A DNA stretch of 64,000 nt. Source: Thuidium tamariscinum. Its lineage: Eukaryota; Streptophyta; Bryopsida; Hypnales; Thuidiaceae. The notes under the pieces were generated by a model, which ran no database searches, had not been told where the DNA came from, and saw only the letters and a list, made by a program, of their open reading frames with translations. Shown piece by piece: positions 19,224 through 55,947 of this stretch. The stretch spans positions 14,709,501-14,773,500 of the forward strand of contig OX344749.2 of assembly GCA_947034885.2 (NCBI GenBank), read 5' to 3'. Position 1 is the stretch's first letter. Every line of letters starts with the position of its first letter. Position numbers and translations under genes: made by a program.

Positions 19224-20969
19224 TCACCAGGGAACCTTCGGTGATGGAATTGTGCTGTCATAAGCAGGGATACCACTATCTTGAAAAGGAAGTTGGCCAT
19301 CCTTAATATCAGAATCCAGCTGATTCACTTCCATGAGAGCTGCAAGTTTTTCTTTCACAATGACCAAAGGGTGCTTGTCGATAAGACCATATTCTTTACG
19401 AGATCCAGATGTCTGGATCTTCTCAAAAGCCCCCTTCAGAAACACAGTGTCACGAGAACCCTTTCTTGAAACATAAAAGTACTCGGGATGGCGGATCAGC
19501 ATGCCATGCAACTGAGACAAGCACAAAATTATCATAAGTTAAATCGGACCATTACTGCTCAGCCACCTACTACTTTCGTGCATAGTAAAGCAGAAGAAGT
19601 TTCAGAGCTCATAATCACTGAAGGCATAGACTCTACATTACATGTGAGCTCTGAAAGTTTAAGACAGATACCACAGTGAGACGCGGATGAGAATACGTAG
19701 TACAACAAACCTTCTTTGAAAAATTGAACTCTTTGCGGAAGTGTGTGAGATGGTCCACTAACACTCGCTTCTCTAAAGTGAGAGACAAAAGTTCTTGAAC
19801 AAGAAGAACTGCGCGCTTTTCAAACTGCAAAGATCGACGATGGAGGTGAGTCGCATCCTGATACGGTGAAGGGCAATCAATTTCGTCAAATTTAGAGACC
19901 CGAAGACGTTTAGGTGTGTCAAGGTCCGACATTGACAGAGTGTCTGCAAACATAGACACGGACACGCTGCTTAGCCACGTGAAAGCAAAATTGTAAAGGA
20001 GAATAGAAGAAATTTCATAATGCAATAATAAAGACCAATCCGAAAAAACGCAACCGACTTACCAGGTCCAAGTGCTTGCTTTTTTCCTTGAATTTTACTC
20101 TCGTGTTCTGTCACAGCCAATCGACCGCTCCATCTCACGAGCTCCAATATATCACCTTCAACATCAAGAGTATCCTTGCTCTCTTTCACCCGAAAATACA
20201 TTGGATACTCGTACACAAAGCTTTTTCTGAAATCATCAGGCAGACCTAGATCTCGCCCTAGATGTGCAATCTTTGACAACGCAAGCGTTTTGTCACTTGA
20301 CATCATAAGAAGCTTCCGCAGCTTGATGACGACCTCGGCGTCCATCCCCTTCCGTATTGCTAATTCTTCATCGAAAACTGCTTCTGCCTCGTGTGTCAAT
20401 TGAAACCAAGGCAGCTTGCCGAATTCCGCAGTCTCGTGGACTCTAAACACAGAAGGATACCGTTTCAGGAATGCGATAAGGCGTCCATCGCCCTTGAATC
20501 CTATGTCATCCTTGCGCTTCCCTAGCTCCAGCAGAGTCATGCATCGGCTTGGCTCGGCCCCAAGATGCTCCTTGATTCCCAAAACGATTCTAAGCTTCTT
20601 TTCTTTCTCAATAATATCATCGAAGCCCCGCTCTTTCAAGTGCCTCACAATTGGGCCAGTTCGACCTAATGGCCTAGATTTCCTTGAAACCTTCCTTAGG
20701 GTTTCTACCCCTGTTTCATTAGTTAACTCTCTTGCTCCAGTTAGGGTTGCAAACGATCTCAAATGATGTCCACGCTCTAACGTATTTCCGGAGATACAAT
20801 CAGCGATACATTCTATATCAAATCGAAGGCGTTGCTGTGGGAATCTGGAACTTACATCGTGACTGTTGAGCTGCCGCGAAAATGGTTGCCCGAAAGAAAC
20901 TGAATTCAGATCCAATCCAATCGCCCTTGCCAGATTTCGAGCGCACCTGTGCGTCCATGTCCTTGCCAT
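19224..20969 (-). CDS. PORR-domain (plant organelle RNA recognition) protein, three exons
   Basis: PORR proteins (the WTF1, WTF9, RPD1 family) bind organelle group II introns and promote their splicing. Exons on the minus strand: 20969-20063, 19943-19711, 19511-19224, with phases matching and a total of 475 residues, normal for the family. The N-terminus is Arg-rich and Ser-rich with few acidic residues (MARTWTHRCARNLARAIG), fitting a mitochondrial or plastid transit peptide. Family hallmarks in order: KDDIGFKGDGRLIAFLKRYP, LPWFQLTHEAEAVFDEE, LRKLLMMS, DLGLPDDFRKSF, EKRAVLLVQELLSLTLEKR, HFRKEFNF, HPEYFYVSRKGSRDTVFLK, EYGLIDKHPLV. The start was chosen as the first ATG of the long frame that carries the transit-like N-terminus. 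No breaks were seen. Which organelle and which introns cannot be told from the sequence. Confidence 0.92.
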
Positions 20970-21612
20970 GAGAATCGTCCGTCCACAAAATCACTGGTTC
21001 GAGGTGCCCGGGGAACATAATCTCTCAAGCGCTCACTCCAGGAAAAGTACAATGGCATGTCGAAATCTTGCATCCGAAGCTCGCCCTTAGACCGTTATCC
21101 AGCTAAATGCTAACGAGCTCCAAGAATTCCCACGCCGTTCTTGCTCACGATTCCCGTCGTAAGGACATTGCAGAGCTAGGGTTTAGGGTTTAAGATGAAG
21201 CTCCATAGCTGATCCGAGTCTGTACTGAGTAAAAGTTACCGGTATTTTCTAGTCACCGTAAAAACACTGAAGTCGCTTTCTTTTATCACCAGTGCCAAAT
21301 TGCACCATTTCAAAATAAATTTCTGCTTATAGCCAGATAAAAGTAATTCTTTATAAGTGGAAAAATTTTCATTTGTATAAGAATACAAATGAAATCACTG
21401 AATTTGGATGAAAAAGTATAAAAATTTGATTGAAAAGTATTATTTGGTACAAAAAATGGTTGGATGTAGAAATACAATGATTTGCCAAATTTTAGGTGAT
21501 TGCAATCTTGGCACTTTCTCAAAAACTAAAATAGAAAGGGTTGGGAGAATTGACCTCTTCTTGCCTTGTCAAAAAATAAATGTAAAAATTGCCCCCTATT
21601 TAATGTTGCATA
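20970..21612 (-). promoter_or_regulatory. PORR promoter and 5' UTR with telo-box
   Basis: On the minus strand, AAACCCTAAACCCTAG lies at about 21176-21193, overlapping telo-box motifs. These are common in plant promoters of ribosomal, organelle and translation-related genes. The nearest 150 bases are less AT-rich than the flanks. Beyond 21300 the region becomes AT-rich with no visible gene. Confidence 0.6.
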
Positions 21613-21790
21613 CACTACAAGAAAAAGGGGTGTTTTAAGTTAGTCCTAGTAGTATAGTCTTTTAAGTAATGACTTTTAAGTAAGTTTTTTATTAAAATTT
21701 TACCAAAAAGATTGTCTTTTTATTAAAAAGTTTATTTAAAAGTCATTACTTAAAAGACTATACTACTAGGACTATACTTAAAACACCTTG
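21613..21790. mobile_element. Foldback MITE with CACTA-type terminus
   Basis: Starts CACTACAAGAAAAAGGGGTG. The arm ggtgttttaag...ttttaagtaatgactttta pairs with aaaagtcattacttaaaag...cttaaaacacc over about 50 bases around an AT-rich loop. It has no coding capacity. It lies 230 bases left of the large MULE. Confidence 0.8.
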
Positions 21791-22019
21791 AAGTCTCCAA
21801 TCTACATTTCCCCTACTATCAAGTTTCTTTACATTAGAAATGTAGTTGTTAGCTTTTTGCCAATACCTATACTAATCCCTAAGAACTAACTACTTAATTC
21901 ATATAAGGTAGGCAAGTGTCATTTAGAGACTAAACATTTTTACTTTGAATATACACATTTGTTGTATATAATTGCTTCACTTTACACTTTTGACTACATT
22001 AAGATGTAAAAAAACATCA

Positions 22020-22031
22020 TGATAACATCCA
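22020..22031. repeat. Left copy of the 12-bp direct repeat (candidate target duplication)
   Basis: TGATAACATCCA here recurs in the same orientation at 37511-37522, immediately outside the inverted termini of the 15.5 kb element. Length is close to the 8-11 bp usual for MULEs. Confidence 0.8.
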
Positions 22032-22034
22032 ACG

Positions 22035-22096
22035 TCGCTAGTACGTGAGCGGTGAGCGGTGAGCGGTGAGCAGCAAGTTGTGAGCGGGGAGCATTG
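22035..22096 (+). repeat. Left terminal inverted repeat of the large MULE
   Basis: GC-rich, built of GTGAGCGG-like subrepeats after GCTAGTACGTGAGC. It pairs with 37431-37506 read in reverse complement and has the same leading motif as the MITEs at 9250 and 39533. Confidence 0.75.
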
Positions 22097-22120
22097 ATTT
22101 GGGATGAAAAAAAATAAAGT

Positions 22121-22262
22121 TGCATGAAAATGGATGAAAGTGGATGGAAAAAATGGATGAAAGTAGATGAAAGTAGATGAAAAATAGATGAAAGTAGATG
22201 GAAAAAATGGATGAAGTTGGATGCAAAAATAGAAGACAATGGACGAAAAGAGCAGATGAAAA
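22121..22262 (+). repeat. Subterminal GATGAAAGTG-type minisatellite
   Basis: More than ten imperfect copies of a unit of about 10 bases (ggatgaaagt / agatgaaagt / ggatggaaaa). The leftward open frames rich in Phe, Ser and His here are read from this repeat and are not genes. Confidence 0.85.
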
Positions 22263-22722
22263 AGGTAAAAATCAAAATATATACCATTTAAAATTGTAAC
22301 TTCACTACTACAGTGCCTATGACCGTGGAAGTAAATTGTCTTAAAACCAAAGAAGTTGAGAGTTGAATTGAATTGCTTTTGTGTCATATAATAAATCTCA
22401 AATAGACCCATTATCGTGGACATTTTTAGAATTGATGATTGTGTATTTTGTTTCAAAAAGAAATGAGAGAATTTGAATTATAAACTAAAAAATTAAAATC
22501 AAAACACAATGGTTAGAAGAGAATGAAGGTAAAAATACATGATATCAATGATGGAATATAATAAACCATAATGCAAAATATAGGTATAAGGAAAACAACA
22601 AAAATTATACAGTAATCTCAATGCTGAAAGTGAAATGGAAGTAGTGGCCCTTTTAGTCTCACTACATATACATTGATGAGTACAGAAGGTACAAAAGTTG
22701 ATACTGTTTTGCAATAAAAAAT

Positions 22723-25700
22723 CTAACTTAGAGCTAAATGATTTAATATTCCACTAAGAAGGATCTTCTTGACTTCATTGAAACTGAAACTTGGGACATG
22801 AATGAAGGCATCTATTGCTGACTCAAGGTTGCAAATGATTGTAAAAACAAAATAGAGATGCTTACAATTTGCCCATTGTCCTCGCTTGCCTAATGACTTT
22901 GTAGTCATTTCTTTGAAGTATGGACATAAACACTCTAGAAATGATGAAATAGTAAACATATATTGTTCAATTTTTGGCTCCAATCCAGAGTCAAGGCAAA
23001 CAATGCAACCAAATCCAGGGTGAGGAACCATTGTTACTCGACGAATGCATGCCTTCAGTGTAATTGCAGATGCACAATTGTTCGCATGTTTTACTGTTGG
23101 CGCCTTTGGATTCCGACGAATGGTTTTCCCTGACCGAATTTTTGGATGCTCATCTGGTATACATGGAACAGGATAAGTAGAGACCAAATCTAAACCTGCT
23201 TCTCCACCAAACAGTCTTCGGGGTGAAATAACTTGACGTTGTGGAAGCTGAAAGCCAGCAGTTTCAAATGCCAAAATCTCTTACTTTGACAAATTGGTAC
23301 CCATTTTGACAGGCCATATGGCAGGGACATTAGGTCTTGACAACACCCACTTCCGACTTGTACCCTTCACACAACGTTCAATGTCGTCATTGCAAAAGAA
23401 AAATTGCATTTGCTCATTTCGATTTTTCTTATAATTGGTCATCATTCCTGTGTACGTTGGTGCTGCTGTAGCAATATTGCTTTGGACAATCCTTGCTGTA
23501 CACTTTTTCTTCGAAATAGCTTGGAGGGCAAAGCAAGCCTTTGCTGAGGATTTAGGAAGCCTTGCAATGTGCCATTGAAACTCATCATAGTTGCTCTCTT
23601 GAATTGCTGACACATGAAGAACTCTGTAAGTAAAACCTTCTCTTAAATTGCCCTCAGTTGTCATCGGATCCTCCATCTCAGTATCTGCAGTTGGAATAAC
23701 ATCTTCAATAATAGGATTCAAATTTTGAGTGCCTGTGGAGGCTCTCTTCGACCTCATTTGAATACGTGGATGAGAAAAATTCACTTTGTCCGGGCGGTGT
23801 GAATCATATTCACAGCCCAACGGCATATCTGGCTTGCGTTTTTGTGATCCAAACACTTCTTCACCTTCAAGACGAGGCTCCCTATTGAGAAATTCTTTCA
23901 CTTCTGGAATGTTGGACATAACTTCAGTGAGCACCTTTGGATTCCCCGATCGTTGCGCTGATCGTTGGGCAACTCGGAGTAACAATTCTTCCTTTCCAGG
24001 TCCTGTTCCAGCTTGATCGCCTTTAAGATATTGATAATACTTGACCATTTGCATAAGGCTCTTACATAGTCGTCAACAGTGACAATGTATAAATCGTTTC
24101 CTCGATTTCCAGATTGTTGAAGCCACTTGTTATGGACAGTTTCGGCTAAATTGCAAGAAGGCATTTCCGCGAGCTCAGATTCACTCAGATTCTGAAATGA
24201 CAATGAAATCAAAAATGAAAATTTTGTTAGAAAAAAATATAAATGTATTGTAAGTATAACATTATTACTATTAATATTGATAGTATAACTAGTAATCAAA
24301 GTAAGAAGGAAATTATAATATGAATCAAGAAAAGACAATAAACTTTCTATCATCAAAGACAAAGAAAACAGACCTCTTTTTTAGTTCATGTCATTTTTTT
24401 ACCAAAAAACTAGGAAAGGAAGTTAAGTTGTGTCATTGTCGTTGATGAAGTGGCAAGACATGCTAAATTATGTCTACTTTCAGTATTACAAAAATAAAAT
24501 GATTGAAGATTCAAATCTCATGATCTTTGTTGACAAGGATTATTGGTCTCTAATTTAATATAATTTTTTTGATTAATAATGCAATAAATAATAACCCATA
24601 CTGTCTTTGATGATCTATTTATAGTAATTATAAGAATTGTAGTGAAATCATGTATACTATACATACATTTTCAAATTGACATTGTCCAAATGATTAGTAA
24701 TGGTTATAAAATTAAATTTTGAATTTTTTGCTATAAATAGATTTAAACAAATAGATATTTGAAATATAATAGATGAAGAATAGATACTTACAAGTTGTTC
24801 AAATCCTCCCCATTGGTGGTAACGGAAATGCCAGAACGATAGCCAAAGTTCCAATCGATGAAGTCCTTCTTCTGTCGTAGCACCAGATGATAACCACCAA
24901 GCTTTTATGGCAAGATATCGAGTTTCTGATTCTTCAGAGGAAATAGCATTCTTGTATTGTTTGCATAGCAAACGATGTTGATCTTGTAAGTCTGATCGAA
25001 TATCAGCTTTTGTATGTTTTTCCATTGATTGAGTCCAATGGAAAAGACAAGTCCTTTCTTGGTTTTCCATTGGAATATGAATGTCACTTGATCCATAGAT
25101 TGTCCTCACAGCATTCCAATTTGTTTGGGCACTATCAGCCATAAATCCCTTGAATTTAAGGTGAGATACACCATGTCTTGCAAGAATCGAATTCAAATTT
25201 TTCCAAAATACAATTTGAGGAGCACAGTCTTCAGATTGCATATCACAGACGGCAATAGTCATAACACGACAATACATGGAGTCGTAGACATGATATGCCA
25301 TAGTAGTCCAACCTTTAACACGTTTAACATGATCAAACATTAACCAAGCATCCTGAAGGTCACCGTCAGGTTGCATTCGCTTGACCAAGTCTACTCCACT
25401 ACCGGGTCCAACTTTCGACATTTTGAAGACAAAATTTTTATCCATATCCGATCCTTGACCTGGAAATTTATTCTCTTGAATAAATGCCCAAGAGCTTGTA
25501 CCCCTCAATTTTGTAATGCTATCCATAACTCCAAACCTCCTTAAGTATTTGAATGAAGTTACCTCATTTCAAATATTTGGAGAGCTGAAATATTTGCACT
25601 TGTCAAGAACTGGAAGAAGTTCATCAATGTTGAGGGTCTTCACTGGAACTCCATCTGGACGTAGCAATAATTCTCCCACAAGTTCTTTTGTAGCCTCCAA

Positions 25701-27002
25701 CACAATTGAAGAGTTTGTCGCAACTGGTGTTCTCTCCATTTGTTCACCAATAAGAATACGGGTTCGCTCCTTGATGTCTCTGAGTTCACCATCTTTGACA
25801 GGATGTTGATGAATGCTAAGATGTACAAATGCACGAGAGAAGTTTTGTTTTCCAAACACATAATATACCCTTGCAGAACATCGAGCAATACAGGATGGAG
25901 GTTGCTTGCATATTTTACAAACAAGTATTGATCCTTGAGGATGTGCACTTCCTACTTCAAATAGTGATGGTGTGAACCCTTTCCATTCTAGTTCATTGAC
26001 AGGCTTAGTTCGATGAATACGACTAAGAAACTCACAGCCCGGATTGATGCACTGAAGATGTCCTACACATGAAGATGTACGGAATGATAATCCCATGGTA
26101 TTTATTATATTTGTTGTAATAGTTTTAGACCAGACATGCCCATCATACCGCTTATCCATCCCACTCATTTGCTTAGCTTGAGATAGAGCAGTGGAGGTAG
26201 TAAGTGGTGGAAACTCAAAAATGACATCTCCATTGAAAGTTGGAGGTAATACGCTCACTCTATGAATAGTAATAGTGTCATAATCAATTTTTTTCAAGAT
26301 ATTTCTACATCCCTTCAGTGTACGCAATTCTCTTAAACAATCAATGACAAATGTAATAGATTCGTTGCTACTAGAGGGATTGGCAAATAATGGCTCATAA
26401 GAACTCGGCAAAGCACTAGAGCTGGGCAAAGTACTCGAGCTGGGTAAAGTACTCGAGCTGGGCAAAGTACTAGAATTGAACAAAATACTAGAGCTTGGCA
26501 ATGTACTAGAACTGGGCAAAGTACTAGAACTTGGTAAAGTTGACTCATGACATCAAATCTTAGAGCTTTGCAGTTGCTTGGGAGAATTGTCATCAGAATC
26601 ATCACTTAGAATGGTGACATCATTCAAACCAGGCTCTAATTTAACTCGTGTTGTTAAAGGTGTATCACGAGAGGACGTAGAGGACTGACGAGGTGTAAAA
26701 ACACTCGTAGAAGTTACCATAATGGATTCACGCAATCCATACACCCTAAATTGACCAGGCTTCAAATGCCACAATCTACCAGCACCATCTGAAACAGGGA
26801 CTTGACCAATTGTGTGAGTAAGGTCTCCACTATGATCATCGAACACCTCTTCATCAATATAAAGTGAGTCCTCGTTCAACTGAAACCTAAGACTTAATCG
26901 AAACGCAGAAACCACAGCAAATCCATCTTTGCCTACTAGAAACGTTATTGGAATCCCTTCACCATTCGCCCTTACAATAGCCATCTCTGTAAAGTCTACC
27001 AT
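22723..27002 (-). pseudogene. MULE-family transposase with zinc finger and SWIM domain, interrupted
   Basis: Exon 1 runs 27002-24792 and exon 2 24191-22723, joined at a GTAAGT donor and a TTTCAG acceptor. The ATG at 27002 directly follows an in-frame stop. In order: an N-terminal region ending in an acidic patch; a repeated STLPSSS linker; a zinc-binding segment (CINPGC, CKIC, then HQH), like the WRKY-GCM1 fingers of plant MULEs; the catalytic core, with MFDHVKR and then MADSAQTNWNAVRTIYG followed by CLFHWTQS, matching the MULE pattern of a second Asp and a C-x-x-H-x-x-Q motif; and a C-terminal SWIM finger (CLCPYF...CKHLYFVF) followed by FNEVKK. Breaks: in-frame stops at 26553 (TGA), 25569 (TGA) and 23281 (TAA), plus a one-base frame change near 24050. 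Each stop is one C-to-T step from CGA or CAA. Family is clear; activity is unlikely. Confidence 0.85.
26398..26540 (-). repeat. 21-bp minisatellite encoding a Ser/Leu/Pro linker
   Basis: About seven copies of a 21-base unit read on the minus strand as S-T-L-P-S-S-S inside the transposase frame, between its acidic N-terminal part and its zinc finger. The unit length keeps frame, so copy number can vary without breaking the protein. Confidence 0.85.
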
Positions 27003-28200
27003 TGCTTAAAGATTGAAGTCTCATGAAGATACCATTCTAATTTACGTCCATATTGCACTCAGAAGAAATGAATTGAAAAGAAAGAGATTGTGCTGGAAAC
27101 AAATATGTAGTTAGCAAATATGATGATGAAGTAGTTTACAACGGCTTGAGCAATAGTTAGGAAATCGTTTGAAAATTTCTCAATGATGAATTCTGACAAG
27201 AGTTCAAGAAGTGACATTAATCTTGATCCCTTAAAAGAACCTCATTAGAAAAGAGAAGCAAACTAAAAACACCTAATGGTGACATATTGACATACTGACA
27301 TAATAGACAATAAAGCATAGTACCAAATTTATTAATAATAGTATAAACTTGAATAAATTAATTAGATTAATAAAAATCTAATTATGAAAATAAACATGTC
27401 TCATGTTAATTAATTTAATAATGATTATGAATTATGAATTAAAAAATAAATGAAATATAGTATATGTTAAGATGTTGGTTTGAAGTGGTCAACATAGTTA
27501 GATTAGTGATGATCCGAAAATAAACATGTCTAACATTAATTAATTAAATAATAAATATGAATTATGAATTAAAAAATAAATGAAATATAGTATATATGAA
27601 GATTTTAGTTTGAAGTGGCCCACATTAGAAGTAGCCGTCATTTGTATGAAACAGGAACAAAGAATAAAAGAAAATACAAACATTTAAGTAGTGGGAGCGC
27701 CAAATCCACCTACAGGTTTACGTTATAGTAGAAGATTGATAGAGTATTTATATAAGAAATAACAATTAGAATAACAGATCCGTCAGATTTCAAAATTTGA
27801 ATAAACTTCAGACTTGTACAATTGTCATTTACCGTTGCCAGAGAGTTTAAGTTTTTCTTGTTAGTACATCTTGCTTACCATCTTTATTAAAGTTGTAGGA
27901 CATCATTGTAATACTTCTTTGGTCTTGAAAGCGTTTTGAGTTTGTGTTACAGTAGCTATGCATCCAGTAGGTGATTTTTACTCTTGTTGTGAAAGAAGAT
28001 TGTAGATTTGTGAGAGATGAGAATAATGCACCTTTGTCAATTTTTGAAGGCTTTGAATAGCTAAAAACATTATTTAAATTAGACTCAATGTTTGTTAGAA
28101 CTATGTCTACAGCTAGTAGGGTTGAATGATAGATAATTTGGAGGTGATAGAGACGGTATTATTGTGATGCTTGTTTCGGAATGTATGTGTGGTAGATCAG
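27003..28200. promoter_or_regulatory. Central divergent intergenic region with 130-bp tandem repeat
   Basis: Lies between the starts of the leftward transposase and the rightward exon at 28201. 27386-27515 and 27516-27645 form an imperfect tandem pair, each with gaaaataaacatgtct, then an AT-rich stretch ending in atgaaatatagtatat. It is the likely promoter region for both directions. No specific box could be assigned with confidence. Confidence 0.55.
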
Positions 28201-28575
28201 ATGCTTGAAGAAATCAAGATCCTTAAGTCTCAGGTTGCAAGTAGGTTGATAAAAAAGAAGAGAAAAAGACGCAAACTATATTACACAACTCCGAAAGCTA
28301 GATCAAAAGCTAAGATGAGAGGGGCCAAAATTTTAAGTAGAGGAAAGCGTAGCTATGGTGAGACGTCTAAAGCACTTGATTTTGGTGACCAAGAAGTGGC
28401 CGACATAGTTGGTGACGGTATTTCATGTCTTGATAAGATTATTGAAGAACCAGTATCTATGGTTGAAAGAGATGAGGACAACATACATGGCGAAGAAGAC
28501 GATCAGAGTAAGGACGAGAGCGAGGACAAGAGTGACGAAGATAGCGAAGAACCTGCCCAAAGTAGACAAGATTTG
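28201..28575 (+). CDS. Putative exon: basic N-terminal part, acidic C-terminal part
   Basis: A 125-codon open frame from ATG 28201 that ends exactly at a strong GTAAGT donor (28576). The first half is basic with a KKKRKRRK nuclear-localisation-like run; the second half is acidic (EEDDQSKDESEDKSDEDSEE). I recognise no domain. It could be an alternative first exon of the methyltransferase-like gene, whose exon 2 also starts in phase 0 and is acidic, or an exon of a third gene in the element. I could not choose an acceptor with confidence. Confidence 0.45.
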
Positions 28576-29290
28576 GTAAGTATATCATATTATTTGATCA
28601 TTTGAAGTTGATGTTTTAAATAAGATGTAGCAAGAATTTGTTTAGAAGAACACTTGTTAAGTACTTATTTACTAGTTCATTACATAACAAAGCCAGAAGA
28701 TGCTTGAAAGTATAGAAGAATAGATACCAAAATGATTAGGTTGTTTGTTGAATTAGTATGAATTTTTTTTTGGTAGAGCTGCATTTGACAGGGAAGACTT
28801 TCTCGTGTATTTTAAAAAGACGATTCCAACGATATATGGCACATAAAAATTGGATGGTTATTGAATGTTTTATGGCCCAAAAACGATTTCAGCAGATTGG
28901 AACCTGGTCTGAAATCTTCAAAATCGGAAGATTTTTAGGCAAATCTTGCCCGTGGACTTTTTTGTGAACTTTGACGATTTTTGTAAAATCAGTAGTGAGT
29001 CTAAAAATTCTGAAAAATTTTGGAGTTAACTGTAAGGTTATAATCTACGTATGAAAAAAATTTCAAACCAAATTACTCAAAATTACATTTGCTATTCAAA
29101 ATAAAGCGCTGACCTAAATCTACCAATTTTGTACTCTTTTTTTTTTTTTTTTTTTTTTCCCCGAAGCCGAAGCCAGCATTGCAAACCAGTCCAATTGTGC
29201 GTCGAAGTTGCTGAGGGTTTGGCGCAGAGGAAGATCGCTCGTTGACGAGGCATCTTCTTTGCGTACGATTTGTGGCGATTGTTGCTGCAA
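28576..29290 (+). promoter_or_regulatory. Upstream region of the ParB/methyltransferase-like gene
   Basis: AT-rich to about 29135, then a run of about 22 T, then a GC-richer block (29160-29290) leading to the ATG at 29291. This looks like a core promoter and 5' UTR. One copy of the CTCGTTGACGAG palindrome lies at 29238-29249. Confidence 0.45.
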
Positions 29291-29796
29291 ATGGAAGAGG
29301 GAGAATTTGCAAAGCGTTCGGCGGTGGCTTCGCGTGGAACGCAAGAAGACACTCAGCCAGACATCGAGGTTTGTTTTCTCTTCTAATTTTTTCTCTGTCA
29401 TTTCTAGTTCGAAGTTTTGTGTATTTTTTGGGGGGGCAGCAATTGCAGGACGTGCAGTTTTGAGGAGTCCTCATTGACAAGGATACCCAAAACGGCGGCT
29501 ACCCTAATCAACATTGGTTTGTTTACAGCCCTTTCGGGAAATCTTCGTTGACAAAAAAACCTAAAATTATACATTCTTTGTTTAGATCGTTAGGTTGAAT
29601 TACACACGACTATTTCGAGGAGTCCTCGTTGACGAGGACACTCAAAACAACTTCGAATCTAATTGAAAAATGCTAAGATTGTTGGGCTGTTCTTAACAAA
29701 AAAAATTTGAAGGACAATATTTGCACATTCTTTGGATCAATGCCAATGTTTTGGTTTGAACTATACTCAACTCATATAGTCCTCGTTGACGAGGCT
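29238..29796 (+). repeat. Cluster of CCTCGTTGACGAGG palindromes around exon 1
   Basis: A short palindrome with a TTGA centre recurs: CTCGTTGACGAG at 29238-29249, GTCCTCGTTGACGAGGAC at 29622-29639 (perfect 7-base arms) and CCTCGTTGACGAGG at 29781-29794. Degenerate forms lie at 29467-29484 and 29543-29552. They span the 5' UTR and intron 1 of the ParB/methyltransferase-like gene. Each contains TTGAC, the W-box core. A binding site for a WRKY-type finger or for a ParB-like protein is possible but is inference. Confidence 0.7.
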
Positions 29797-31319
29797 GTCC
29801 ATAACTTGTACTACTTTAGGCTGAATTTTGAGAAGAGATGCCATTTCATGATTTCTTTGTAGCTTCTCTAGTTTTCTAATAGAATGAGTTTTTAACTGAT
29901 TTTAGCCGTTTACTTCAATTCAAACGAAATTGGATATGCATTGTGGAAATTTTTTAGAGCTTTGAGATTATTTAGGAATTCAGTTGTCAATGTTGTTGTA
30001 TTTGTGTTGTCTTATTTGTATACTACGATGCTGTAAACAAGAATCAAGAATGAGTTCATTTTCCTTTCATCTTCATTTATAAATAATGGAGGACTTATGT
30101 CAAGTTTTCTTCAATGATTTCAACTAATCAGATGAATGAAGAAGAAGAAACTGAAATCACATATGTCGAGGAGGAAGAAGGTGAGAACAACAATGATGGT
30201 GAGAGAGTTGTTACAGGAGAAACGGGAAGAGTTGCACCTCCAATTGTTGAGGTAAATGAAATTTCTACATGTTCTCAACTTCATGTCCTTTTCATTACTT
30301 TGTGTATGTACAATTATTCAAAACAACAAGTTTTAAATGTAAATCACTCTCTTCTCTAATGCCATTTTATCTATCATTTTTTTGAAGGTTGCATCTATTG
30401 ATCTTGAAGATGATGAACCAAGATGTGAATGTCCAGCTGATGTAACAAGTGTATTGGAGAGTGAGCAACTCCACCGCAAACAGCTTAAAGTGGACACTAC
30501 AGGACTCATCAACACATTGCGTATCCAACCAGTTTCTAGATCACGCCTTGAGATACCTCTTTGTCGAATGATTGTTATGAACGAGGTTCGACCGGTTGGT
30601 GAAATGGATGTTCAAAGATTGGAGAGTGAGTTTATGACTGGCTATCGAGATGGTGATCGGGTTCTATATATATCACCATACAACAATTTCGAAAAAACTA
30701 TGGACGTGACTGAAGAAGAAATTGCAAGGTGGAGTCCTCATTGGCAACATGTGATTGAGGAGTTTGAGAAAGAGTTGATGGCTGATGATGACCTTGCCCA
30801 ATTGAGAGGCAAGATGTTTTATGTGTGGGATGGAAATCATCGTGTCTCGGCATGGATGCGACACATCACCAACTATCATCCTACATAACTTGATTGGCAT
30901 TGGCAAGTTCATTGCATTATATTGGATCCAAGAGGTCAAGTGGCAAACTTGCTAAATGCAATGAGTGATATTAACTGGTACGTTTCTTATTCTATTTAAA
31001 TTTATTTGTGAAGAATCTAAATATGAATTCATTGCCATGAAATTTGATTTCATTCTCATGCAAATGCATTGTATAATGTGTAGGTCTACTGAGCATGATC
31101 ATGTGAAGAGTACAATTCCAGCTCGATTGCGGCGAATTCGAAATTTTGGAGTTTTACCTCTTGCTGATTTCAAGGACCTTATATCTCCTGAAGAGTACCA
31201 ATATTGTGAGAAGGTGAAGGCAATGAGACCGAGTTGGTTTTCTTTGACAGTCAATGTCTTCATCTCCTTTTTGTATAAGGTGCAATCACATTTCCAATTT
31301 GTTTTTCTTGCAACATTTA

Positions 31320-32232
31320 TATGTCATTTCTGTAATTTCTTTGACATTCTTTTGATATTGTAATATCTTTGACAATCCTTTAGCATTGTAATTTCTGTGA
31401 TTTTTTTGACATTATAAGTTTCAGTTTGTGGTTTCTGAAATTTTTGTAGTTCCTTTGATAGTGTGATTTCTGAAATTTTTGTAGTTCCCTTGATAGTGTG
31501 GTTTCTGAAATTTTTGTAGTTCCCTTGATAATGTGATTTTTGAAATTTTTGTAGTTCCCTTGACAATGTGATTCCTAAGATTTTTGTAGTTCCCTTGATA
31601 GTGTGATTTCTGAAATTTTTGTAGTTCCTTTGATAGTGTGATTTCTGAAATTTTTGTAATTCCCTTGATAGTGTGGTTTCTGAAATTTTTGTAGTTCCCT
31701 TGATAATGTGATTTTTGAAATTTTTGTAGTTCTCTTGACAATGTGATTCCTAAGATTTTTGTAGTTCCCTTGATAGTGTGGTTTCTGAAATTTTTGTAGT
31801 TCCTTTGATAGTGTGATTTCTGAAATTTTTGTAGTTTCCTTGACAATGTGATTCCTAAGATTTTTGTAGTTTTCTTGACAATGTGATTTCTGAAATTGTT
31901 GTAGTTCCCTTGATAGTGTGATTTTTGAAATTTTTGTAGTTCTCTAGACAATGTGATTTTTGAAATTTTTGTAGTTCCTTTGGCATTGTAAATTTTAGTT
32001 TATAGAAAGTCTATTCTATAATAAATTTTGAAGTCCTCTATTTATATGATTTCTTTGACATTGTGATTTCTGAAATCTTTTGTAATTCTTGTGACATTGT
32101 AATTTCTGTAGTGTCTTTGACATTGTAATTTCTGAAATTTTTGTTATTCTATGAACATTGTCAATTCTATGATTTCTTTCACATTGTAATTCCTGAAATT
32201 TCCTTTGACATTGTAATTTTTGTAATTTTCAA
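31320..32232 (+). repeat. 33-bp minisatellite filling intron 4
   Basis: About 25 imperfect copies of a unit like tttctgaaatttttgtagtt + cccttgatagtgtga. Because the unit is 33 bases, the minus strand reads as an artificial 11-residue repeat protein (KFQKSHYQGNY and similar), which is not a gene. The same unit recurs in intron 9. Confidence 0.9.
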
Positions 32233-34439
32233 TTGTAGCGGGAGATTGCATTGGCCGCCGATGAAGCAGCTCGAGAGTACACGATGCGGACACCACTCCA
32301 AGAGAGGACTGCTCCAGGCATTTGGGAAGTAATGAAAAATGCCTCAGACAAGTTTGTCAAGGCTGTTCATGCCAAAGACTTTGACAAATACCTAGCGGTG
32401 GCAAATCCAAAGAACGGAAATGATTTTCTCAAAGAGGTATGAGTTCATTTGTATTCCATTTAAACTTGTAATCTCTGAATTTATCTATACATTGCATCAT
32501 TTCAATCTAATATAAATGTTTTTATGTGCTCAGATTGATAGACACTTCAGTGAATATCCAAATCCTGAAATGACGATTGAAAAGCTTCAAAAAATTGCCA
32601 CCGCTAACATTGAAGCAAAACACAAGGTACGGTGGTTAAGGTGGTGGAATGCATCCTTGACGGTTCGACAATCTTATCGCTTTCCAGGGTCCAAGGATAA
32701 AGACCTCTTTTGGGATTCTTGGATCAATAAAGCATCTTTTTGGGCTGAGGTATTGTATTGTGACCGCAAATCATTTCTTTCTTGCACTTATTATGATTTC
32801 ATTTTATTGTATTTTTAACATTCTTCATTTCATTTTAATAGATGGAGGAAGCAGTTGTTAAGATGGTTACAAACATTTGCAAAGATGAAAACATTGTCGT
32901 AGATTGGACCATACAAGGTGTTCGAAAGCCCTCTGATTATATGGAGAGTTGGCGCATTTTGCTTTGGGATAAAGCATTTATCTTGTTCTTTGGAAACAAA
33001 GATCAGAAACTCTATACAAAGAAGTCTGTATTTAAAGAGTTCCCTGGAGTTGAGAGTGCAGTGAGACGTATTGTATACAGGTACTATCATGCTATTGCAC
33101 TTATCTACTTGCTTTAATATTTTATTATGTAGTTTCTATTGTTTCTTATTTTTGGTTCCTATTTGTTACCTTTACTTCTAAAAGTTGATGAAAATGCTTT
33201 GTTTGTTCTTATTGTTTTCATTCATGAATTACTTGCCAATCATGACATTTGTCTCCTTGACTTCAGGTACTTCATGCGGGTTCTACTTCGCAAAAATGCA
33301 ATTTCAGCAGAAGCTGTACCACCCTTTTTCCTTTCTTGGTTGCAAAAAGACTCTGATCTTTGTATATTTACATTTGAGCAATTGAAGAAGTTCAAAGCTA
33401 CACATTTGGAAGCGGGAGGGTGGTACCTTGGTTGTCATCGGAATTACACCCCTGACTCAGAGGTTGCAGAGAGGACAGCTTTTGATGGTGGACAACTTGT
33501 TATTCTTGACCCTGACGATGCAGAAGAAGTCAATCAACCACAAGAGAAGGCACCAAAGAAAAAGCGGCTCACAAAGAAGGAGAAGGAAGAGATGGAGAGG
33601 GTGGCCAAAGAGAAGGCGGAGAAAGAGAAGGCAGAGAAAGAAGAAGCCGAAAGACAGAAGTCTCAAGCAAATGAGCTTGTAGCCGCGCCTTCACAGAGTC
33701 ATGAGACTACCCCCATGTCAGACCAAGGCCATGATGATGGCCTTGCACCTGCTGCTCCAGATTCTTCTTTATCGAATGTTGTTCATGCCACTGGTAATTG
33801 AATTCGAAAGAAGAAACGATTCATGTTCCCTTCAGCCAGCTCTTCAATGATAGAGCCTAAAGACTCTCTTTATGTCTTTGTAGAGTGCACTTCTCTCATC
33901 ACTCTCTTGAATAGTTTACAAGAGTCCACTGGCCCTGATCCTCGATGGATAAGGTTGCATGACACTATAGCTAAGGTATTGTATTCTCAACTTAATTCCA
34001 ACATTTCATCTTTTATGGCATTGCTTTGAAGGTTTTAATTCTAACTTTACATGTATGAAATGTGCAGATTAGTGCTACTCGCAATCGTACTGTCACATCC
34101 GACTTTTGCAAAGAATACAAACATACAAGACTTGATTTGATCATTGCAGACATTTCAGAGAATCTACCTATTCTAGGTCTTTCAACTTCAATTCCAGAGT
34201 GGAACGCGCGCAAAGAGAATTATGTTGAGACTCTCTTTGAGATGGCTGATATGTATTTGCATGATGATGGTGCCCTCCTACTCATACATTGTGATGACCG
34301 AAGATTGCTAAAAGAAGTTGATGAGTTGGCCGACCAGTATGACATGAAGTTGGCCAAAGATTGGTGGGGAATCAATGAGCTACATCTTGCATCTGCACGG
34401 GATCCATCATTAACGGTAAATGAAAAAGTTTATGTGACT

Positions 34440-35450
34440 TCTTTGACATTGTGATTTCTGAAAAATTTTGTAATTCCTTTGACATTGAAATTTATGTGAT
34501 TTCTGAAATTTTTGTAATTCCCTTGACATTGTAATTTCTATTATTTCTTTGACATTGTGATTTCTAAAATTTCCTTTGACATTGTACATTTTAGTTTGTA
34601 GGAATTTATAGAAAGTCTACTCTACCCTTAACTTTGAAGTCCTTCATTTTTGTGATTTCTTTGACATTGTGATTTCTGAAATTTTTGTAATTTCCTTAAC
34701 ATTGTAATATCTGCGATTTCCTTGACATTGTAATTTCTGAAATTTTCTTTTGACATTGTAAGTTTTAGTTTGTAAGTAGTTTGTAGGAAGTTGTAGAAAG
34801 TATATCCTAAAATAAACTTTGAAGTCCTTCGTTTTGGTGATTTATTTGACATTGTGATTTCTGAAATTTTTGTAATTTTCTTAACATTGTAATATCTGCG
34901 ATTTCCTTGACATTGTAATTTCTGAAATTTTCTTTGACATTGTAAGTTTTAGTTTGTGAGTAGTTTGTAGGAAGTTGTAGAAAGTATATCCTAAAATAAA
35001 CTTTGAAGTCCTTCGTTTTGGTGATTTATTTGACATTGTGATTTCTGAAATTTTTGTAATTTTCTTAACATTGTAATATCTGCGATTTCCTTGACATTGT
35101 AATTTCTGAAATTTTCTTTGACATTGTAAGTTTTAGTTTGTGAGTAGTTTGTAGGAAGTTGTAGAAAGTATATCCTAAAATAGACTTTGAAGTCCTTCGT
35201 TTTGATGATTTATTTGACATTGTGATTTCTGAAATTTTTGTAATTTTCTTAACATTGTAATATCTGCGATTTCCTTGACATTGTAATTTCTGAAATTTTC
35301 TTTGACATTGTAAGTTTTAGTTTGTGAGTAGTTTGTAGAAAGTTATAGAAAGTCTATCCTAAAATAGACTTACAAAGTCCTTTGTTTTAATGATTTATTT
35401 GACATTGTGATTTCTGAAATTTCTGTAGCTCTCTTGATATTGTAATTTCT
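34440..35450 (+). repeat. Higher-order tandem repeat in intron 9, period about 184 bp
   Basis: The landmark gaagtccttc and its variants recur at about 34635, 34821, 35004, 35188 and 35374, giving a period near 184. Each large unit is built from the same tttgacattgtgatttctga module seen in intron 4. The two introns thus share one minisatellite, here arranged in larger blocks. Confidence 0.88.
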
Positions 35451-36393
35451 GAGATACAGTTCTTTCTAATATTCAACTTTTCAATGTTTGCAGTCTGTTC
35501 GATTTTGGATTCAATTGTTTATTCAGCGGGAGATTCCTTCACGGTTTTCATTCCAAGAAAACCGTGATTCTTCTTATGATGGTGAGCCTTTAGAGAAAAA
35601 TGATGCTCTCTTCAATCTTACGGATATTGAAAGCCTTTCTATGAATGAGAAAATTCCATGGAGAGGTCCACGTGAGAAGAACTTACCCTTTAAGCGAGAT
35701 CTCATCCTACAATTTTGCAAGCCTGGAGATATTGTCCTTGATTGCAAAGCTGCAATAGGTATTTTTTTTCTTCTACAATTTTAAGTTCTATTCATCATTC
35801 TTTGGAGCTGATTTTTCATAATTTATTCATATATTTTTTGTTTTCCAACAGGTTCATCCATCAAGGCTTGTTTGGAGACTGGACGGCACATCTTAGCATT
35901 AGAAGATGATCCTCTCATTTTCAAGGCTATGATTGCCCCGTTTGCCCCTGTTGCAGCCTCTATTTCTACAACCAAGGATAGAGCCACTACCCCACCGCTT
36001 GATTAGCCACCTATAAAGAAGCCAAAGAGGAATCGATTCATCTCTTGTGCGTAAGTTGTGATTCATTTGTTAAGTCACCATTTTTCATTTTATAAGAATA
36101 TTTGAATTACATTGTATTTTACTAACCTTTTTTTCTTGTCTTGCAGAGACACCGTAGTAGAGCAAGTACAAGATGCAAATGAGCAGAGTCCGCCTTTCAA
36201 TTTCATTCTCCCGGTTTATGCAGAGAGGATTACTCAAGCATATGTTGATGCTCCATCTCCAATAGTGAATCGACAAAAGCTTCGATATGATCCAAAGGTA
36301 AAGGAGTTCTTGGATATAGAGGTAGATCAAAGAGAGGAATTTGAGATTGAAGGTTCAACCTCTAGTGACTGTAGCTCTAGTGGTGGTCTTTGA

Positions 36394-37430
36394 GTGGTTT
36401 TCATTTTTCAGTGTATTTCACTATTGTGGCTCTAAATTGCCCTCCAGTTTTATGGCATTTGCTTTATCATATATATATTATACAGGCATTTGATTGTGTG
36501 TTCTAAATGTTGAATGCTATATCCAAGTGACCCACATATTTAAACTTATTGTATCTTCTTATCTTGGTGAGTATTCAATTTCTCATTGTGTGAATTTAAA
36601 CAACAAAAGATTTGTTTCTAAATGATTCACAATTGCTTATAACTTTAATGGTTGCAATATTATGCCATAACTATATATGTCTTTTTTTGAGTGGTATTGT
36701 AGTATTATAGTTTTTCATTCAATTTCTTTAAGCTACTTGGTCTTTCCATTATAAGTATTAGATGTTTTTTTGCTCCGTAGGAGACTATTTCAGGGTTCTT
36801 CCCTAAAACTGTTCACTGTGCAATGAACCAGCGACTGCTGGTCTGAATTTTTTGAAGGAAAAAAAAAAAAAAAAAAATCAGAAAGTTATGAAACAAAAAA
36901 CTGATTTTTTTAAATTAATAATTAATTAAAAATATAGTAAAATCTAGCATGATAATCTCTCAACAATGTTAGCCTTCTAAATGCCCCAAAAAACATCTAA
37001 TGTCTTAAATGACAAAAATCCATGGTCATAGATTTCCTTCTATTTTTATTAAAACTAGAAACCATCATTTTATTAGGTATCCAAATTTCCTTAACAATCC
37101 ACGGCTTTACATGCCTGTTTTAATACAAATTAAATTTTTATGAAAATTATACGGTAATAGGGTCTCTTAAATTTCATAAATTAAACTTTAATAAATCATT
37201 TTTGGTTCTCTTATCTCTATTCTTTGCTCTTGTAGAGAACTTTAAATGTTTGAAATTACATGATCATAATGCTTATATCATATAGCTATAGATCTAAGCT
37301 TCCAAAATTCCATGGCTTTAGATTAGAATTGGATTGAAAAAAATTCAAATTTAATATTTTTGGAACAAACTAATTACACGGTTTTAGGTACCCTTTTCCA
37401 CGGTAATAGGATTAGGTAGGTCTTTTTTCC
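36394..37430 (+). other. 3' flank of the methyltransferase-like gene inside the MULE
   Basis: AT-rich, with a run of about 19 A near 36860-36878. Subterminal motifs ACGGTAATAGG appear near 37150 and 37401, mirroring those of the left end and of the element at 62698. No gene is seen. Confidence 0.5.
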
Positions 37431-37506
37431 TAAAATCCCTGCTCCATGCTCACTTTTTCCTGCTCCCTGCTCCCCGCTCGCTGCTCCTTGCTCACATACC
37501 AGCATT
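37431..37506 (-). repeat. Right terminal inverted repeat of the large MULE
   Basis: A CTGCTCC/GCTCAC-rich block ending GCTCACATACCAGC. Its reverse complement begins GCTGGTATGTGAGC and matches the left terminus at 22035-22096 with several differences. Confidence 0.75.
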
Positions 37507-37510
37507 CCTC

Positions 37511-37522
37511 TGATAACATCCA
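37511..37522. repeat. Right copy of the 12-bp direct repeat
   Basis: TGATAACATCCA, identical to 22020-22031. Confidence 0.8.
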
Positions 37523-39532
37523 CTAAATCTTGCAATTGAAAGAATAACAATAATGGGCATGTATTGTAGTCTATAAAGATGACTAAGTTTGGTTTGGGAC
37601 ACAAGTTGTCAAATCTACCATTATTTGTACGTGCTCTCTGTATAGAAGAATTTAATTTTTTTCTAATTTAATCCATACAAAATTATACTAGATACTATGG
37701 GAACATTTGAATTATCTTTTGAGACTTTGCCATAACACATTGTAAGGCTGTAGTATTCAACATAAAAAATGAATTTAGCTATATTGTTGGACTAGTTTAA
37801 GAAAAGTTTTTATTAACGTCACTTGATTGAATTAGTAAACTTTGATTTCTTTTAGAGTGAGATTTTTGAAGTACATAGTTTTTATTAAGATTAATTATAT
37901 ATTTGCCAAATTTCAAAAAATAGAATTGGAATTTTACAAAAGTTGTCCAAAATTTTTAGCAAGGGTCTATACAATCTCTAAAATGATGGGTAATATAAGT
38001 GTATGACTTTTGATTTGGGTCTTTAATTGTCAAATGACATCATTGCAAAGAATGTATTTCCTTTGTCCAACTAAAAACCTCCAAATCAAGTAGATTTTTT
38101 GATTCACTAAAAAACTATTTCTTAATTTGACCATTGACTAAGTGATTGTTATGTTGAACGACCTCAAGGGGGCAAGTGAATCAATCCGGGAGCATTCTTT
38201 TGGCCTAGCAAACTTTGCCTTGCCTATATGAGGTACCTTGTACCAATTGCTTCCTTACGCAATAGAATTGACAATGCGTGTACATAGTAACAACTTCACT
38301 GCTATAAAAATTTGTTTATAAAGTGGGCCAAATTTTCTTGTTGTGAACATATTTCTAAATTCCATTGTTTCTACCACCCTTTAAACCATCTATAATGACA
38401 AAGCTAGTAGCATTCACAAACTACACTAAAATATCATACTTTCTACATCAATTATGGGTGCCTAAATTATAGTTGGAGATTTTGCATAGATCTAAGGGAT
38501 GGGTTACTTGTTCTTGAATGCATATATTGCATGATACGGGAAAAAGAATTTTGGAGTTTTTTTGGAGAATAAAAAGAATATATTTTCTTGTACCTTGTAT
38601 CAAACTTTCTAAAAGATTCATTCAAAACTAACTTTATAAGAACCTGCTCCAATTTCCTATTGTCATTTTCAAAGATGATTGTCCTTTAGAAAATTTTCAC
38701 TTTAAACCCTAACATCTAAATTATCCTATTTTTTTGGTTGGAAATTGAAATAGGTTCCCAAATATATTTAAGACGGTTTTTCAAAGTATATTCATCAAAA
38801 TGGTGTTAGCAAGGGGCTTAAAAATGAATTTAGGTACATTGTTGGACTATTTTTACTTTGCTAAGACCACTCCTAATACCAATTGCAAACCTTAGTATAT
38901 ACCAATGCCACAAAAGGGGCTTTAACAAAGTTTATATATCATAAATAGAGGTTATCTATTTGTCAAATTTGGAAAAAAAATTAAACTATTTTAAAACCAA
39001 TTTAAAAACATTTCATGTTGATAGTTCACAAAAATGCAACATCTATTTTTATTAGGTGAATTGTTACTTTTTGGTTGAAATGTCATCATACACAAATTAG
39101 CACAAAAATGGGCAAAGATTCAATCATGGAAACATCATTCTTACTATCGCCTAATATGGAATTTTTATACTTTATTGTATTCTTAGAATTAATTTCCTCA
39201 TAAAAAAAAGGTATTCAATAGAAATTTCAATTTGTAATGCATTGTTGAATTTCAATGTTAGTCTTTTAAAATTAAATGCCCCTATTGTGTCTACTAAGTC
39301 ATTTAGTTGCTCATGAGTTGTTACTTCCATTCTCCAACAATACCACTATACATCTTCAAATCTCCATTGCTTCATTTATTTCAATGAAGATCTATTTAGA
39401 CTACTTAAATGATAGTAATGAGCCACATTGAGAGCAACAAAAATAATTAGGTGGCTTATCTTACATAAGACACATTGACCAAAGCAATAGGATATAGAGT
39501 ATTACCCTGACAATCAAGATGGGACACAACAA
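37523..39532. other. AT-rich spacer, nothing recognised
   Basis: No coding exon, RNA gene or clear repeat was seen between the MULE and the next MITE. Confidence 0.5.
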
Positions 39533-39770
39533 TGCTAGTATGTGAGCATAGAAGTGTGAGCCTATGAGCCTTGAGCCTAAGTATAAGTAAGTATCCTACA
39601 TTCTTTGAAGGTGTTTATAACATAAAAACCTATAATATAGATGTTTAGAATATAGATATACTATTACTATTGAGGTGCCTATAATACATACACCTATATT
39701 ATAGGTGTATAGAACTCTAGGCTCATAGGCTCACATGAGGACTCACACTTTCTATGCTCACATACTAGCA
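39533..39770. mobile_element. MITE related to the large MULE (copy 2)
   Basis: A 238-bp unit with inverted ends of roughly 50 bases: left TGCTAGTATGTGAGCATAGA, right the reverse complement ending TCACATACTAGCA. The interior resembles the MITE at 9250-9494 (ggtgtttataacataaa, then ctataatatag motifs). A direct repeat of about 10 bases (gatgggacac / tatgggacat) may mark the target, weakly. Confidence 0.82.
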
Positions 39771-55767: not shown

Positions 55768-55947
55768 CCTCAGAGAAGAGTTTGCTGCCCCCTCGAAATC
55801 TGTCACATGCAATGCAATGGAATGCAAAGCCGGCTTAATTAATTCGAAAGGATGTGAAAAGCATGAGGGATAGATAACGTTCGTCAATGCTACAGCAAGG
55901 CATTGCAGATCGACCACCTACAACACGTTCAATTGACTGGGCAGAGA

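Follow-up and report, generated by a model that had tools for sequence, protein, structure and literature searches.

A decayed 15.5 kb DNA transposon of Thuidium tamariscinum that encloses a methyltransferase-like second gene

In a 64,000 nucleotide (nt) stretch of the genome of Thuidium tamariscinum (Bryopsida; GenBank assembly GCA_947034885.2, contig OX344749.2, positions 14,709,501 to 14,773,500; 33% GC), referred to below as the window, a transposase-like gene lies opposite a 12-exon gene that encodes a methyltransferase-like and a probable ParB-like domain. This locus raises the question whether both genes belong to one mobile element and, if so, what the second gene contributed to it. 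The region is a single insertion of a decayed 15.5 kb DNA transposon, which spans positions 22036 to 37504 and is enclosed by duplicated flanks; the evidence is drawn from a single copy together with its neighbours within the 64 kb. The best explanation, to which we give a probability of about 0.5, is a two-gene cut-and-paste transposon whose ParB-like and beta-class methyltransferase-fold accessory protein served in binding and anti-silencing or in mobilisation. This value jointly covers the assignment of the first protein as a DDE-type transposase, which would be Mutator-like by motif reading only.

Termini and flanks of the insertion

A first-pass annotation of the window had described a 12-bp direct repeat around inverted GC-rich termini, and both are present (Table 1). 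The repeat, TGATAACATCCA, is exact at its two positions. As a bare word it is unremarkable, with two matches in the window at up to one mismatch and 14 of 100 shuffles reaching two. The idea of a chance repeat was nevertheless rejected, because the register of the repeat relative to the termini is not unremarkable. In the 15.5 kb element and in two short elements with the same termini, A and B, the terminus was anchored at one common base, and the left and right flanks were compared at each of 55 offsets (6 to 60 nt). The best offset was 22 nt in all three elements. At this offset the exact runs are 16 bp in element A, 12 bp in the 15.5 kb element and 8 bp in element B (14 of 22 positions matching), and the edges of the duplications lie 1-8 nt from the termini in each case. 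Among 20,000 random position pairs compared at offset 22, a run of 8 occurred in six, a run of 9 in one and a run of at least 12 in none, while 14 total matches were reached by 20. When any of the 55 offsets was allowed, 30 of 20,000 random pairs reached a run of 12 and 1028 a run of 8. Element B alone is therefore no proof, and the weight lies in the agreement on 22. As the duplication and the replaced edge bases sum to a constant 22 in three elements, the geometry suggests a target stagger of 22 nt, in which other bases, perhaps donor flaps that were retained, have taken the place of the 1-8 nt next to each end.

The conserved terminus TGCTAGTATGTGAGC starts at 22036 with two mismatches and ends at 37504 with one. 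Nine matches with up to three mismatches were found in the window compared to 0.93 expected, two of the nine being internal repeats. A subterminal motif, CCACGGTNATAGG, has 10 matches at up to two mismatches compared to 1.16 expected, a number reached by none of 100 shuffles. All ten are accounted for by the transposons, six being located no further than about 500 nt from an end of the 15.5 kb element and four in a further element, C, and the motif is oppositely oriented on the two sides. Two points weigh against reading these numbers as independent support for one element: CCACGGTNATAGG was chosen by eye from the two element ends and element C, so that the motif derives from sites later found, and the terminus profile was built from the same ends that it then recovered.

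The shared termini, the common 22-nt flank geometry and the inverted subterminal motifs indicate that one insertion spans 22036-37504 and encloses both genes, as had been proposed. The first-pass annotation had named the counter-case, two separate small elements which by chance flank a host locus with two genes, and short elements with matching termini, A and B, do occur in the window. However, the 12 central bases are identical between the flanks of 22036 and 37504, in a register that A and B also show, and the subterminal motifs of one end are inverted relative to those of the other. Furthermore, six of 1776 candidate terminus pairs passed the flank filter, namely A, B, the 22036/37504 pair and three others whose termini are weak or whose run is just 3. 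This counter-case was not borne out, and we regard it as exceedingly improbable.

Table 1. Features of the 15.5 kb element and of related elements in the window (positions in the window; strand left empty where none applies).
Feature	Positions	Strand	Basis or remark
Target-site duplication, left copy	22020-22031		Exact match to 37511-37522, in register at 22-nt offset
Target-site duplication, right copy	37511-37522		Exact match to left copy, in register at 22-nt offset
Left 22-nt flank beside terminus	22014-22035		Central 12 match right flank, edges differ
Right 22-nt flank beside terminus	37505-37526		Flank-offset scan
Left terminal inverted repeat core CGCTAGTACGTGAGC	22036-22050	+	Terminus searches
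Right terminal inverted repeat core TGCTGGTATGTGAGC	37490-37504	-	Terminus searches
Tandem GTGAGCG repeat, left end	22045-22071	+	TRF, 3.9 copies
Tandem 7-bp GC-rich repeat, right end	37436-37493	-	TRF, 8.3 copies
Subterminal motif CCACGGTNATAGG, left end, 2 copies	22316-22419	-	Motif search
Subterminal motif CCACGGTNATAGG, right end, 4 copies	37020-37410	+	Motif search; inverted relative to left end
Transposase-like gene, first exon	24792-27002	-	D..D..CxxH..E read by eye; in-frame stops 26553-26555 and 25569-25571
Transposase-like gene, second exon	22723-24191	-	SWIM-like CxCx19CxH; frameshift near 24072, in-frame stop 23281-23283
Open frame ending in GTAAGT donor	28201-28578	+	Open-frame reading; alternative first exon of second gene or separate small gene
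Second gene, 12 exons, 1148 codons	29291-36393	+	Exon assembly; in-frame stops 30886, 33799, 36004
Exon 3, probable ParB-like domain	30388-30977	+	PHROG and motif reading by eye; VWDGNHRVSA from 30823
Intron 4 with tandem array	31250-32238	+	TRF; 35-bp unit, 15.9 copies at 31427-31982
Exon 9, start of methyltransferase-like domain	34068-34415	+	Pfam and alignment; motif IV position DISE (34149-34160)
Intron 9 with tandem array	34416-35493	+	TRF; 184-bp unit, 4.7 copies at 34592-35455
Exons 10-11 with intron, remainder of methyltransferase-like domain	35494-36050	+	Pfam, PHROG, alignment; motif X and I positions off consensus
Element A, 239 bp, same termini as 15.5 kb element	9255-9493	+	Terminus and flank scans; 16-bp duplication in 22-nt frame
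Element B, 238 bp, same termini as 15.5 kb element	39533-39770	+	Terminus and flank scans; 8-bp exact run (14/22 matches)
Element C, left end, with subterminal motifs in common	62699-64000	+	Motif and terminus searches

Two divergent genes and their decay

The transposase-like gene consists of two exons, read from 27002 to 24792 and from 24191 to 22723, which are separated by a 600-nt intron. In the translation of 24789-25568 the candidate residues D79, D145, a CxxH at 174 and E240 were assigned by eye. An order of D, D, CxxH and E is expected for Mutator-type transposases. The C-terminus fits a SWIM-like CxCx19CxH pattern. An 18-bp coding repeat of 7.4 copies (26407-26540) is located near the N-terminus. 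No model for Mutator-like elements (MULEs) or other transposases matched at E≤10 in Pfam, which contains the MULE model PF10551, for the whole protein or its core; the HMMER filters drop most matches above about 0.1. The protein matched unrelated Pfam models alone, at chance level (best E 0.042), which weighs against a Mutator-like transposase. The first-pass annotation had called the gene a MULE transposase. A transposase-like gene on the minus strand is present, but, as Pfam lists no transposase model for it, the gene is termed here MULE-like rather than MULE. The duplications are also unlike those of ordinary MULEs, which are 8-11 bp long and lie directly outside the termini according to the relevant passages of PMC6446971, whereas runs of 12, 16 and 8 bp are positioned in a 22-nt frame here. 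The MuDR element and other MULEs with two open reading frames (mudrB, mutB), as described in the same passages, share with this locus a transposase and a second reading frame as well as the D-D-E, CxxH and SWIM-like motifs read by eye, and differ from it in the missing Pfam MULE match.

The second gene is encoded opposite the transposase-like gene inside the same termini. Its reading frame contains four stops including the terminal one, compared to 50 and 107 in the other two frames, and all 11 introns are bounded by GT..AG; the exon joins were picked by eye to keep phase. This supports the divergent 12-exon gene of the first-pass annotation, which had however taken it to be complete. The three internal stops show that it is not. 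Between the two genes, the open frame of 126 codons encodes basic tracts followed by acidic ones and ends in a good splice donor; it may be a third gene or else provide the second gene with an alternative first exon.

Three internal stops were thus found in the second gene and three in the transposase-like gene, the latter in addition to a frameshift. Of the codons one deamination step away from a stop, 56 survive in the second gene, and 64 do so in the transposase pieces (leaving out about 40 codons at 24073-24191), so that about 5% were lost in each. As the decay is similar in both, the two genes probably lay together, methylated, for about equally long. The observed/expected ratio of CpG is 0.55 in both element genes, while two host genes have 0.99 and 0.88. 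A value of 0.55 also applies to the window as a whole, which counts against this argument, and CpG depletion alone therefore does not single out the element. All six in-frame stops fit one kind of coding-strand change, and none requires a tryptophan codon, despite a count of 44 TGG codons over the two genes; this strand asymmetry is slight and may be due to chance.

The similar decay also bears on the explanation that the second gene is a passenger without a role in the element, which either arrived as a nested insertion or stems from a single capture of a host or foreign gene. Acquisition of host genes by MULEs is documented in parts of PMC13317346 and PMC6446971, and a single copy is available. 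The gene pair being known from one copy, its fixed association within the family is putative, which weighs against the two-gene transposon. On the other hand, no enclosing inner termini were seen around the gene: when the 25 longest of 116 inverted pairs were inspected, the ones that join its sides proved to be poly-T/poly-A. With its 12 exons and the arrays common to two introns, the gene would be unlike a captured fragment, and the same architecture and strand arrangement have been reported in an algal transposon (PMC12477816, in its account of that element). We therefore consider a passenger unlikely. A Pack-MULE, which would hold captured pieces of the host but lack a transposase gene, does not fit, since the transposase-like gene sits within the same termini.

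Methyltransferase-like and ParB-like domains

Exons 9-11 of the second gene match the Pfam model PF01555 (N6_N4_Mtase) with a domain E of 6.8e-6 (26.6 bits), and the whole protein does so with 3.6e-5 (24.3 bits); both scores are below the curated cut-off of 26.7 bits, the domain by 0.1 bit. DNA methyltransferase matches were also obtained in PHROG (E 5.8e-6) and PADLOC (type II, E 3.7e-7). Together, these matches support the presence of an N4/N6 methyltransferase fold in the predicted protein. The order of the motifs, with the position of motif IV first and that of motif I last, is that of the beta class under the rule on methyltransferase motif order. A search of phage sequences by tblastn with the methyltransferase part returned 489 records at E≤10, the lowest E among the best 20 of these 489 being 2e-4.

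The motifs were compared with four aligned phage or plasmid enzymes (21-23% identity). The position of motif IV reads DISE here, while two of the enzymes have DIPY and two DPPY. At the position of motif X, GPREKN corresponds to HPTQKP in three enzymes and to HPTEKP in one. Motif I reads DCKAAIGSS, compared to GSGST in three of four. The fourth enzyme (L005) likewise departs at motif I (GGSCKV), and this motif is therefore weaker evidence for a loss of catalysis than IV and X. Since several changes per motif exceed the decay of about 5%, the ancestral methyltransferase was probably already non-catalytic, as judged from the motifs in one alignment.

This comparison is relevant to the alternative that the second gene encoded an active DNA methyltransferase which marked the element's own DNA with N6-methyladenine or N4-methylcytosine, as proposed for a protein of the brown alga Ectocarpus. 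An active enzyme would agree with the fold found in Pfam, PHROG and PADLOC and with the suggestion, in the pertinent part of PMC12477816, that ParB and methyltransferase proteins of transposons bind and modify their own element; moreover, a departure at motif I is also seen in L005, one of the four enzymes, so that this motif by itself proves little. However, positions IV and X differ from all four enzymes, and the substitutions per motif are more numerous than the decay should give. An active methyltransferase thus appears decidedly improbable. The first-pass annotation had suggested a transposon that could mark DNA, which is doubtful for this protein because the copy is broken and the methyltransferase motifs look degenerate.

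The ParB-like domain in exon 3 is probable. DG(H/N)xR is a signature of the ParB and sulfiredoxin folds, and VWDGNHRVSA resembles it by eye. Several results weigh against this assignment. The PHROG match to a ParB-like family is weak (E 0.11), no ParB match was found in Pfam, NCBIfam or PADLOC, and a tblastn search of phage sequences with the ParB part yielded no match at E≤10. Two single-sequence AlphaFold2 predictions were too poor to be of use, with a mean pLDDT of 34.0 and 37.8. A comparison of the region with the sequences of the PDB gave nothing of note (best E 0.06, unrelated). As a control, an F-plasmid protein annotated as ParB/RepB/Spo0J also lacked a Pfam ParB_N match at E≤0.01. Of the ParB-like and beta-class methyltransferase-like domains that had been claimed for the gene, the second is thus supported and the first remains weak by sequence.

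Relatives were sought in several collections. A fusion of ParB and methyltransferase was not found in the one phage region where it was sought. PF02195 (ParB_N) and PF10551 were each absent from the three phage or plasmid records examined for them, compared to 10 and 3 positives, respectively, among 14 control genomes. Two scans of a genome contig collection confirmed no relative. A viral contig locus (L001), for which four protein pieces served as queries, contained phage-like genes and a short shared peptide; it was judged a chance match and dropped.

Intron arrays, known counterparts and the role of the second protein

The arrays in introns 4 and 9 of the second gene are the two highest-scoring minisatellites of the window and have sub-units in common. 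On the plus strand TTTCTGAAATTT (up to one mismatch) occurs 28 times in the two introns and three times elsewhere, and on the minus strand it is absent from the introns and occurs three times elsewhere. For TTTGACATTGT the corresponding numbers are 27 and one on the plus strand and zero and one on the minus strand. The array unit is a candidate binding site. In Arabidopsis, VANC21 of VANDAL21 binds dense, same-orientation, tandemly repeated motifs which are also located in the introns of VANC21 and VANB21, as set out in the relevant section of PMC5735166. The 15.5 kb element resembles this system as a large element with a second gene and same-orientation tandem arrays in non-coding parts, here the introns of the accessory gene, with a putative binding role. 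The likeness concerns the arrangement alone, and the array units differ from the YAGTATTAY of that system.

Target duplications of Sola elements are 4 bp long, and the transposase of the 15.5 kb element is probably not Sola. A Sola element of Ectocarpus, Sola1-1_Ec32, nevertheless offers a precedent for the gene pair: in the passages of PMC12477816 devoted to it, a 1104-aa protein with ParB and methyltransferase domains (1148 codons here) is encoded opposite the transposase of a 21.5 kb element. Similar proteins are cited there for green and red algal transposons, with reference to Iyer et al. 2011 and the Bostrychia genome paper, and genes of this type are suggested to form an accessory class of transposons in algae, with a proposed function. 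Like the algal protein, the second protein would combine a probable ParB-like domain with an N4/N6 methyltransferase domain and is encoded opposite a transposase within the same termini of a large DNA transposon. The two were likened by description and differ in their host, a brown alga versus a plant. The algal domain is predicted to methylate, whereas the catalytic and cofactor motifs expected of such a protein are not seen here, IV and X differing from all four aligned enzymes. Intron arrays are not mentioned for the algal element in the passages concerned.

The pairing of a transposase with a ParB and methyltransferase protein is thus already known from algal transposons. No land-plant transposon of this kind was found in the open-access literature searched (titles and beginnings of abstracts); as this scope leaves plant sequence databases outside, a plant case may well be on record. 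New here are the plant host, the different transposase, the probably non-catalytic methyltransferase and the arrays of one shared unit in two introns. Other mobile elements show partial likeness. DIRS1-type retroposons carry an inactive adenine methylase (PMC3537659), and so resemble this element in a catalytically inactive domain of the adenine-methylase type; they are however retroelements with a tyrosine recombinase, and a ParB-like domain has no occurrence in the text available for that paper. C5 cytosine methyltransferases acquired by retrotransposons of dinoflagellates and a charophyte, described in part of PMC5890265, are a further example of a DNA methyltransferase in a mobile element, but again in retroelements, and this class is called structurally unrelated to adenine methyltransferases there.

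Our best guess is that the second protein was an element-specific DNA-binding accessory or anti-silencing factor. While intact, it would have bound repeated sites in its own element, either the intron arrays, the subterminal motifs or both. Once bound, it may have kept the element expressed or aided its mobilisation; its mode of action would have been that of VANC or mudrB and not DNA methylation. Silencing by the host would eventually have followed, after which both genes would have been broken by point mutations and an indel. A role in transposition itself, such as end recognition, target choice or integration, overlaps with this explanation, which covers both roles. It is suggested by the inverted subterminal motifs at both ends and in element C and by mudrB, which is apparently required for integration (PMC6446971, in the part on MuDR), and the unusual 22-nt geometry could conceivably need an extra factor. 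However, a transposase site would account for the subterminal motif just as well, and such a role would leave the intron arrays without explanation. A function in transposition alone is accordingly rather unlikely.

Element C, with the subterminal motif in both orientations, shows no right end within the window; this end probably lies just beyond it. Nested in C is a foldback-like stretch (62969-63252), whose inverted ends measure about 45 bp as judged by eye. The non-autonomous elements A and B are alike inside and have little beyond the termini in common with the ends of the 15.5 kb element. An inverted repeat at 21641-21774 (arms of 57 nt, 93% complementary) adjoins the left side of the 15.5 kb element and is likely another small mobile element. 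Two neighbours show a plant host: a gene at 19971-20990 with a match to the plant organelle RNA recognition domain (PORR, E 8.1e-48), which suggests a land plant, and a BAHD-type transferase matched by open frames at 53362-55917. An EGF-like open frame (44887-45267) has Pfam EGF-type matches with E 0.0002-0.002, all below the cut-offs. A 155-bp tandem repeat (17620-17937) has 2.1 copies that are 98% matching. Rfam (at gathering cut-offs) and tRNA scans of the window gave no matches.

A separate oddity of transposition chemistry, and one that can be checked, is the flank geometry of 22 nt that three elements have in common. The arrays common to two introns provide a concrete candidate binding site, which would link the ParB and methyltransferase class to anti-silencing by plant transposons, and the second gene possibly helped the element to evade its host. 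At its boldest, and here we are sceptical, the reading would be that a plant transposon lineage turned a prokaryote-type ParB and methyltransferase protein into a non-catalytic reader which docked on its own intron arrays and blocked silencing, an independent counterpart of VANC, in the same family that uses a 22-nt stagger with 1-8 nt replaced per end, perhaps by retained donor flaps. With methyltransferase motifs that depart from the consensus, a plant case would allow the recognition of DNA to be told apart from its modification: should the class work without catalysis, binding would be its core job.

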